A DNA stretch of 64,000 nt from Pyrococcus sp. NA2. Its GTDB lineage: Archaea > Methanobacteriota_B > Thermococci > Thermococcales > Thermococcaceae. Below are positions 43,657-52,789 of the stretch, piece after piece. The notes under the pieces were generated by a model that made no database searches, had not been told where the DNA came from, and was given only the letters and a program-made list of their open reading frames with translations. Each line of letters opens with the position of its first letter. Position 1 is the first letter of the stretch. The stretch lies in assembly GCF_000211475.1 (NCBI RefSeq), contig NC_015474.1:248001-312000 (forward strand). The letters run 5' to 3'. The translations under genes and the position numbers were made by a program.

Positions 43657-43734
43657 TGGCGCCCGGGCCGGGATTTGAACCCGGGTCGCGGGAGTGACAG
43701 TCCCGCATGATAGGCCGGGCTACACCACCCGGGC
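43657..43734 (-). tRNA. tRNA-Asp (GTC)
   Basis: A full cloverleaf can be read on the minus strand. The acceptor stem GCCCGGG pairs with CCCGGGC. The anticodon stem GCGGGA/TCCCGC frames a loop with GTC at 43698-43696. The T arm is CCGGGTTCAAATCCCGG. G73 and an encoded CCA finish the 3' end. All stems are nearly pure GC, as expected at high growth temperature. It follows the 5S rRNA by 6 bases and is probably cotranscribed with it. Confidence 0.96.
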
Positions 43735-43740
43735 GCTTAT

Positions 43741-43864
43741 AGCGGCCGGCGGCGTCCCCGGCTTCCCGCCCCCTCTCGGAGGGCAGTACAACCGGGATCG
43801 CTGGGGGGCTTAACTTCCGGGTTCGAAATGAGACCGGGTGTGGCCCCCCCGCTATGGCCGCCGT
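43741..43864 (-). rRNA. rrf: 5S ribosomal RNA, separate from 16S and 23S
   Basis: The minus strand holds the conserved archaeal 5S sequence, including CATTTCGAACCCGGAAGTTAAG in loop B/C region and CCCGGTTGTACTGCC. The terminal helix pairs GGCGGCC near the 5' end with GCCGCC near the 3' end. Ends are approximate to a few bases. A TATA-like TTTTTTAAGG stands about 25 bases upstream. No 16S or 23S rRNA is in the window, so this is an unlinked 5S copy with tRNA-Asp. Confidence 0.95.
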
Positions 43865-43887
43865 GCCGTAACCTACTCAAAACCCAC

Positions 43888-44334: not shown

Positions 44335-44434
44335 GTGAGAGGATTCTAAAGGAAGCTTATAAGTATAGTAACACCTCTTCGTTTCTAACTTAAGATTTTA
44401 AACATTTAGTTCATATGATGTATTGGGTGCTGGT

Positions 44435-45115
44435 ATGAAGAAGATAGGGATCATAGGAGGAATGACACCTGAGTCAACTCTGTATTACTACCAAAAATAC
44501 ATTGAGATAAGCAGAGAAAAATTTGAGAAGTACACATATCCAGAGTTGATAATTTATTCAATAAACTTTAGAGAATTCTTCCAAAACCCTGATGGGTGGG
44601 AAGGAAGAAAGAAGATCCTTATTAATGCCGCAAAAGCCTTAGAAAGAGCTGGTGCAGATATCATAGCCATGTCAGCAAACACTCCTCACATGGTGTTTGA
44701 CGATGTTCAAAAGGAAGTTAATGTTCCAATGGTTAGCATAATAGATGCTGTAGCTGAAAATGTAAAAAGGAGGGGTGTAAAGAAGGTTTTGCTCTTAGGA
44801 ACTAAAACCACCATGAGTTCTGATTTCTACATAAATGCCTTAAAAGAGAGAGGACTCGAAGTTGTTGTTCCCAATGATGAGGAAAAGGAGGAACTCAACA
44901 GGATAATATTCGAAGAATTGGCATTTCACAACTTCAAGAATAGGGGATGGATAATAGAACTAATAAAAAAGTACATTGAAAAAGAAAAAATTGAGGGAGT
45001 AATACTTGGGTGTACAGAACTGCCTCTCGCGATAAAGCAGGGAGACGTCGAGGTTGAGGTGTTTGACTCAGCCGAAATACATATGAGGAAGTTAATAGAG
45101 ATTGCCTCAGAGTGA
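44435..45115 (+). CDS. Aspartate/glutamate racemase-family protein lacking one catalytic cysteine
   Basis: 226 residues, Asp/Glu/hydantoin racemase superfamily: KIGIIGGMTPESTLYYYQKYIE, VLLLGTKTTMSSDFYI and the second catalytic cysteine Cys193 in GVILGCTELPLAI. The first catalytic position, Cys in the usual CNTAH of Pyrococcus aspartate racemase, is Ala81 in MSANTPH. A two-cysteine racemase mechanism would therefore be impaired, so the protein may catalyse a different reaction. GGTG lies 5 bases before the ATG; the in-frame upstream start at 44423 is less likely. Its stop codon lies within the C box of the following sRNA. Confidence 0.88.
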   Translation: MKKIGIIGGMTPESTLYYYQKYIEISREKFEKYTYPELIIYSINFREFFQNPDGWEGRKKILINAAKALERAGADIIAMSANTPHMVFDDVQKEVNVPMVSIIDAVAENVKRRGVKKVLLLGTKTTMSSDFYINALKERGLEVVVPNDEEKEELNRIIFEELAFHNFKNRGWIIELIKKYIEKEKIEGVILGCTELPLAIKQGDVEVEVFDSAEIHMRKLIEIASE

Positions 45116-45165
45116 TGAACCCGCGCAGCGCTGAGTGATGATGAGGATTTTAAGTGCTGACATCC
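45108..45165 (+). ncRNA. C/D-box guide sRNA
   Basis: Box C is GTGATGA (45112-45118), box D' is CTGA (45131-45134), box C' is ATGATGA (45138-45144) and box D is CTGA (45157-45160). The C-D' and C'-D spacers are both exactly 12 bases, the spacing characteristic of archaeal C/D sRNAs, and the D'-C' spacer is 3 bases. The guides are ACCCGCGCAGCG and GGATTTTAAGTG. The D guide would pair with CACUUAAAAUCC and direct methylation of its fifth base, a U. The 5' end overlaps the last codons of the racemase-like gene. Confidence 0.85.
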
Positions 45166-51049: not shown

Positions 51050-51325
51050 ATGAAGAGGCTTGGAAAAGTTTCACACTATGCAAAGCAGGGATTATTGATA
51101 GTCAGAACTAACTGGGTTCCCTCCCTAAATGATCCCGTAGTGGATAAAGATCTAAAGTTTGTGGGGATAGTTAAGGACGTTTTTGGCCCAGTAAGAATGC
51201 CCTATGTTGCCATCAAACCAAAAGTTGAGAATCCTGAGAGATATGTTGGTCAAATCTTATATATTGATGAAAGGAGAAAAACAAGGAAGAAAGGAAAGAA
51301 GATGAGGAGAAAATCAAAGAGCTGA
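51050..51325 (+). CDS. gar1: H/ACA RNP protein Gar1
   Basis: 91 residues, Gar1 family beta barrel: MKRLGKVSHYAKQGLLIVRTN, DPVVDKDLKFVGIVKDVFGPVRMPYVAIKPKV and RYVGQILYIDERRKTRKKGKKMRRKSKS with a basic tail. Gar1 binds Cbf5 and speeds substrate loading in pseudouridylation RNPs. It lies 26 bases after phr. An H/ACA-type RNA gene is found 1.3 kb further along. GGGATGTGAT lies before the ATG. Confidence 0.93.
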   Translation: MKRLGKVSHYAKQGLLIVRTNWVPSLNDPVVDKDLKFVGIVKDVFGPVRMPYVAIKPKVENPERYVGQILYIDERRKTRKKGKKMRRKSKS

Positions 51326-51350
51326 ATTGTGATGAGAGGGGACCTCGCCG

Positions 51351-51842
51351 ATGTTGATTGGAGTTTTGAGCGATACTCATTATCCAAAGGCATATTTTCC
51401 TGAAAAGATACTTGAATTTTTTGAAAAGAGAGGAGTTAGATACATAATCCATGCTGGAGATGTTACCGAGAAACAGCTTCTAGAGAAACTTGAGAATATC
51501 GCACCGGTTATAGCGGTAAGGGGAAATGCCGACAAAATTAACCTTCCAGAAGAAGAAACACTGAACGTTATGGAGAAGAAGATATTGATCTTGCATGGTC
51601 ATAATTTCCTCTCCCTGAATACCCAGAATTTAACTTATAAGGCTCTTGAAGAGGATGCAGACATTCTAATTTTTGGACACACTCATAGACCTTACTATAA
51701 TGAAGTTACAACAATGGGAAGAAGAATCATACTACTCAATCCTGGGTCACCAACATTGCCAAGGATGAGCGAACCCACATTTGCGATCATAAGAATTGAG
51801 AAGGAGATAGACGTAAGGTTCAAAAGGGTATGGATGCTCTAG
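51351..51842 (+). CDS. YfcE/MJ0936-type metallophosphoesterase
   Basis: 163 residues. Metal-binding motifs are IGVLSDTHYP (D and H), IIHAGDVTEKQ (GD), VRGNADK (GNxD), ILHGH and LIFGHTHRPYY (GHTH), then LNPGSPTLPR. The family acts on phosphodiesters such as bis-p-nitrophenyl phosphate; natural substrates are unknown. It follows gar1 by 25 bases and overlaps the end of the converging Cas4-like gene by 4 bases. Confidence 0.93.
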   Translation: MLIGVLSDTHYPKAYFPEKILEFFEKRGVRYIIHAGDVTEKQLLEKLENIAPVIAVRGNADKINLPEEETLNVMEKKILILHGHNFLSLNTQNLTYKALEEDADILIFGHTHRPYYNEVTTMGRRIILLNPGSPTLPRMSEPTFAIIRIEKEIDVRFKRVWML

Positions 51843-52476: not shown

Positions 52477-52535
52477 GGCGTCAGCTAATACCGACGTCAT
52501 CATCAACTCAGGGCTGGGCAAGGATCGTCATCCGC
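52477..52535 (-). ncRNA. C/D-box guide sRNA
   Basis: On the minus strand box C is ATGACGA (52530-52524, one change from RTGATGA), D' is CTGA (52511-52508), C' is ATGATGA (52503-52497) and D is CTGA (52484-52481). Both guide spacers are exactly 12 bases: CCTTGCCCAGCC and CGTCGGTATTAG. The D'-C' spacer is 4 bases. These fit archaeal C/D sRNA rules. Targets would be GGCUGGGCAAGG and CUAAUACCGACG, not identified here. It lies just upstream of the Cas4-like gene and may share its transcript. Confidence 0.75.
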
Positions 52536-52567: not shown

Positions 52568-52587
52568 ATTTATCTAGAATATAAATG

Positions 52588-52744
52588 CCGACAGCGAGGG
52601 TACAGTCCCTCGCAAGGGCTCGGTCAACCCGCCCCCGCAAGAATTGGGTCTCGATGAGCGGGGTGTGCTCACGCCGAGCCCACAGGGCCGGTTCCCCTCG
52701 CCCGCGGGAGCAGTGACCGACGGGTCTCTGTACCGGCCCACAGC
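52588..52744 (+). ncRNA. Two-hairpin H/ACA-like guide sRNA with 5' stem-loop
   Basis: The roughly 155-base island is far more GC-rich than its surroundings. Hairpin one pairs GGGCTCGG (52616-52623) with CCGAGCCC (52674-52681) and is followed directly by ACA (52682-52684). Hairpin two pairs GGGCCGGT (52685-52692) with ACCGGCCC (52732-52739) and is followed by ACA (52740-52742). Inside hairpin one CCCCGC pairs with GCGGGG, leaving two unpaired flanks that form a pseudouridylation pocket and an apical GA-rich K-turn-like loop. A smaller 5' hairpin GCGAGGG/CCCTCGC stands at 52594-52613. It is similar in type to the high-GC hgc RNAs of P. furiosus. T-poor flanks and a following AAAAATTTAATA end it. 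Confidence 0.85.
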
Positions 52745-52789
52745 AAAAATTTAATATCCTCTTCTTAATAAATAAGTGGAGGCCTATCT

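Follow-up and report, generated by a model that had tools for sequence, protein, structure and literature searches.

A C/D box sRNA overlaps the 3' end of a racemase gene

The window, that is, the whole 64-kb stretch of DNA analysed here, belongs to a genome of Pyrococcus sp. NA2 (G000) that consists of a single contig of 1,861,320 bases. On its forward strand lies an open reading frame for an Asp/Glu racemase (44423..45115, +; Pfam Asp_Glu_race, E 2.4e-44), the end of which runs into a short sequence proposed earlier, on inspection of the letters, as a C/D box sRNA at 45108-45165. Direct reading of the boxes and a match in the Rfam database bear out this proposal, with the core of the sRNA spanning 49 bases (45112..45160, +) and the remainder consisting of a few flanking bases. 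The core begins with the C box GTGATGA (45112..45118), followed by the D' guide ACCCGCGCAGCG (45119..45130), the D' box CTGA (45131..45134), a spacer of three nucleotides (GTG), the C' box ATGATGA (45138..45144), the D guide GGATTTTAAGTG (45145..45156) and the D box CTGA (45157..45160), all on the forward strand. Both guides measure exactly 12 nt, as had been stated, and the arrangement GTGATGA-12-CTGA-3-ATGATGA-12-CTGA conforms to the order C, D', C', D with guides of 10-12 nt.

A strict search for the C/D'/C'/D pattern returned this sRNA as its single occurrence in the 64-kb window and gave no occurrence in any of 100 simulated 64-kb sequences generated with the trinucleotide statistics of the window. 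The Rfam family snoPyro_CD (RF00095) matches positions 45108-45163 (+) with 45.7 bits (E 2.4e-6), narrowly above the gathering score of 45. Box arrangement and spacing are alike in this family and the sRNA; the family covers Pyrococcus C/D sRNAs in general and is uninformative on the target. Judged by its sequence, the stretch 45112-45160 is a textbook example of an archaeal C/D box sRNA. The genes for fibrillarin (PF01269, G000:C1:495393-496055) and Nop5 (PF01798, 496181-496858) adjoin each other in the window genome. A scan for terminators 3' of the sRNA found none and the fold downstream is unremarkable. A search of a plasmid collection gave no match. A match to HgcC on the opposite strand was dismissed as chance (20.1 bits against a threshold of 50).

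The TGA that ends the racemase reading frame (45113-45115) lies inside the C box, as the original prediction had noted. This overlap is real but a common feature: about 25% of archaeal C/D sRNA genes include an upstream stop codon, and in nearly half of these cases it is the C box that contains it (PMC7994747); both stop-codon overlap and modular movement are already known for C/D sRNAs in general (PMC7994747; PMC4644070).

Both guides find their best match in tRNA-Leu(UAA)

Targets were sought among 43 tRNA species and the 16S, 23S and 5S rRNAs of the window genome, gathered as loci; the set contained neither the intron-containing tRNA-Trp nor every tRNA with a CAU anticodon, and no 7S RNA, RNase P RNA or mRNA. 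Within it, both guides match best to the same molecule, tRNA-Leu(UAA), encoded at G000:C1:97652-97736. The D guide, whose complement CACUUAAAAUCC is as given in the original prediction, pairs through positions 2-12 with GACUUAAGAUCC in the anticodon arm, forming 11 contiguous pairs of which 10 are Watson-Crick and one, at G37, is G-U. Its fifth position, five bases ahead of the D box, pairs with U34, which is the predicted target. The wobble U34 of this tRNA had been suggested as a possible target of the D guide before any comparison with the tRNAs and rRNAs of the genome; the comparison supports this proposal and suggests that it can be extended to the D' guide, for which no target had been named. 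The latter pairs through positions 2-12 with GGCUGCGCGGGU of the same tRNA (11 contiguous pairs, all Watson-Crick), and its fifth position, five bases ahead of the D' box, pairs with a G. This G, at base 59 and two positions ahead of the T stem, corresponds to position 47 of the tRNA, and G47 is the predicted target. Position 1 of either guide is unpaired with tRNA-Leu(UAA) in this genome.

To put these matches in proportion, each guide was shuffled 1500 times. None of the shuffled D guides equalled the observed match, whether to any tRNA or to tRNA-Leu(UAA); for the D' guide, 5 of 1500 did so for any tRNA and 0 of 1500 for tRNA-Leu(UAA). Against tRNA-Leu(CAA) the D guide would meet an A-C mismatch at the methylation site and should therefore discriminate between the UAA and CAA isoacceptors.

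The guide pair is conserved in two genera of Thermococcaceae

Both guides occur together in 14 of 94 Thermococcaceae genomes, namely in seven of the nine of the window's genus and in all seven of the genus g5. All 14 share the same letters 2-11 of the D' guide, and those of the D guide vary solely in one genome (G008), where a C replaces the T opposite G37 and turns the G-U into a G-C pair; guide position 12 and the spacer between D' and C' boxes drift. In all 14 genomes letters 2-11 are still complementary to tRNA-Leu(UAA), which for G006 follows from its tRNA-Leu(UAA) being identical to the reference. The conservation of these ten letters fits the maximum of 10 nt that C/D guides are reported to recognise (Yang et al., 2016).

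Within the window's genus, the UAA guide pair was not found in G009, an incomplete genome (77%), nor in the complete genome G011, which is also without a close racemase orthologue (best match 35% identity). In the groups g2, g3, g4 and g6, the search for the UAA pair returned only a CAA-type guide and weak matches with three mismatches. The tRNA itself carries a G at position 47 in 14 of the 14 genomes with the sRNA versus 39 of the 76 without it (counted by eye; Fisher p 3e-4), an association that is weak evidence because only two clades carry the sRNA. Sister Thermococcus groups without the sRNA keep the same anticodon arm, so that decoding in the presence of the predicted Um34 can be compared, as in a natural experiment, with decoding in its absence.

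The CAA-type guide belongs to a sister C/D sRNA (L078, at G000:C1:714505-714526 in the window genome) of the same architecture, whose D guide GGATCTTGAGTG differs from the UAA guide by two bases and is aimed at C34 of tRNA-Leu(CAA), and whose D' guide is a different one. Nearly all genomes of the family have the sister sRNA, while the search located the UAA guide in no more than two genera. The D guide of the sister sRNA could also form a duplex with tRNA-Leu(UAA) in which the target base sits in a G-U pair, and this might be the reason that the UAA guide can be dispensed with. The D' core CTCGGCAG is common to the four copies of the sister sRNA that were read (L078, L092, L093 and L094); for this D' guide no strong target was found, but there is a partial match to the D arms of tRNA-Leu.

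The sRNA is found in different gene contexts

The sRNA resides at the 3' end of the racemase gene in G000, G004 and G006, at one intergenic site in G005 and G008, and at another intergenic site in G007 and G010. The genus g5 has it at the 3' end of a DUF371 gene. BLAST similarity between different contexts is confined to about 48-71 bases around the sRNA, apart from one match of 94 bases, and the racemase orthologues of G005, G007, G008, G010, G086 and G092 end without this sRNA. In G004 and in g5 the reading frame of the host gene includes the D' guide and ends within the D' box (SDEPAQR*, DDPAQR*), unlike in the window, where it stops in the C box. The D' guide is thus kept both where it is coding and where it is noncoding, and protein coding is no explanation for its conservation.

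The 3' end of the DUF371 gene also carries a C/D-like sequence overlapping the stop codon in G000, G006, G008 and G011 (L140, L144, L145 and L147), but a different one with other guides, while no C/D-like sequence was found at this position in G005, G007 and G010. The second guide of the copy in G008 matches best to the variable arm of tRNA-Ser, as tested on the tRNAs of the window genome.

As a tentative reading, possible rather than probable, the sRNA may be a mobile cassette of about 50 bp, with both guides for one tRNA, that moved within two genera among no fewer than four gene contexts, including the DUF371 3' end that holds an unrelated C/D-like sRNA in several Pyrococcus; whole guide pairs may be exchanged by way of C and D boxes that also serve as the last codons of genes. 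The sRNA also illustrates how a C/D guide pair can be retained when its gene changes place, the C or D' box at times supplying a stop codon.

Relation to known guides

A guide to the first anticodon position of tRNA-Leu(UAA) was reported in three Pyrococcus species (d'Orval et al., 2001, cited in PMC7994747); compared by description, it shares with the present sRNA the target tRNA and the wobble position. In P. furiosus, moreover, G47 of tRNA-Leu(UAA) was predicted as a site from snoRNAdb (PMC7668247). Taking the two reports together, the sRNA is most likely the orthologue of the described Pyrococcus guide to position 34. The description of that guide in the review (PMC7994747) mentions no second target on the same tRNA, whereas the present sRNA has a predicted one. 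The C/D RNA sR50 likewise serves two sites of a single tRNA, the wobble base among them (Cm34 and Um39; PMC7994747); it is encoded within the intron of the pre-tRNA-Trp that it targets, while the gene of the present sRNA is separate from that of its target. In S. acidocaldarius tRNA-Gln(UUG), two guide-predicted sites, U34 and G18, were observed (PMC7668247). The tRNA-targeting sRNAs of Pyrobaculum, in contrast, are said to use one guide only (PMC7994747) and differ in this from the present sRNA, both guides of which fit one tRNA. We regard it as mildly new that both guides serve the same tRNA, that the cassette relocates and that the 3' end of one gene has different sRNAs in different species.

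Predicted function and alternative explanations

The pairing and conservation data argue strongly that the sRNA is a box C/D sRNA of the archaeal type that serves a single tRNA, very probably guiding 2'-O-methylation of tRNA-Leu(UAA) at U34 through the D guide and at G47 through the D' guide. The racemase gene would be the probable source of the transcript, the sRNA being transcribed with the racemase mRNA and trimmed from its 3' end, and it would bind L7Ae, Nop5 and fibrillarin. The predicted Um34 would stiffen the wobble base that reads the leucine codon UUA (possibly UUG), and Gm47 would lend rigidity at high temperature to the junction between variable arm and T arm. One small RNA is thereby tied, concretely and in a form open to experiment, to two predicted methyl groups on a single tRNA.

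Against the assignment of the D' guide, mass spectrometry detected no methylation, in the P. furiosus tRNAs analysed, at predicted positions including G47 of tRNA-Leu(UAA) (Wolff et al., PMC7668247). This would be accounted for if the D guide alone directed methylation and the D' guide paired with tRNA-Leu(UAA) to capture or fold it as a chaperone, leaving G47 unmethylated. We consider such a division of labour unlikely, since the D' guide keeps its letters 2-11 unchanged across 14 genomes and these form Watson-Crick pairs with the tRNA, and since their register obeys the fifth-nucleotide rule and agrees with the published prediction of G47.

The majority of archaeal C/D guides target rRNA (PMC7994747), and the sRNA could in principle do the same, its match to the tRNA being incidental. 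Candidate rRNA targets were rejected, as the best rRNA match of the D' guide contains two mismatches and a G-U, and the twelve best matches of the D guide include none to rRNA, which makes an rRNA guide highly improbable. That the locus is a chance C/D-like motif at a gene end, unexpressed, might be argued from the TGA stop supplying part of the C box; the architecture, the Rfam score, the joint complementarity to one tRNA and the conservation of a cassette of about 50 bp in four unrelated contexts leave this explanation scarcely credible. Dual guidance on tRNA-Leu(UAA) is the reading we prefer.

Other RNA elements

Three further guide RNAs lie close together in the window according to Rfam, namely sR52 (51295-51353, +), a second snoPyro_CD member (52478-52535, -) and the H/ACA RNA HgcF (52587-52753, +). 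At 43657-43865 (-) of the window, a tRNA-Asp gene adjoins a 5S rRNA gene, apart from the 16S-23S genes at G000:C1:653681-658493. Another C/D-like element, TGATGAGGACCTTAGGGGCTGA, is located at G000:C1:701279-701300 and is also present in G006, G008 and G088.
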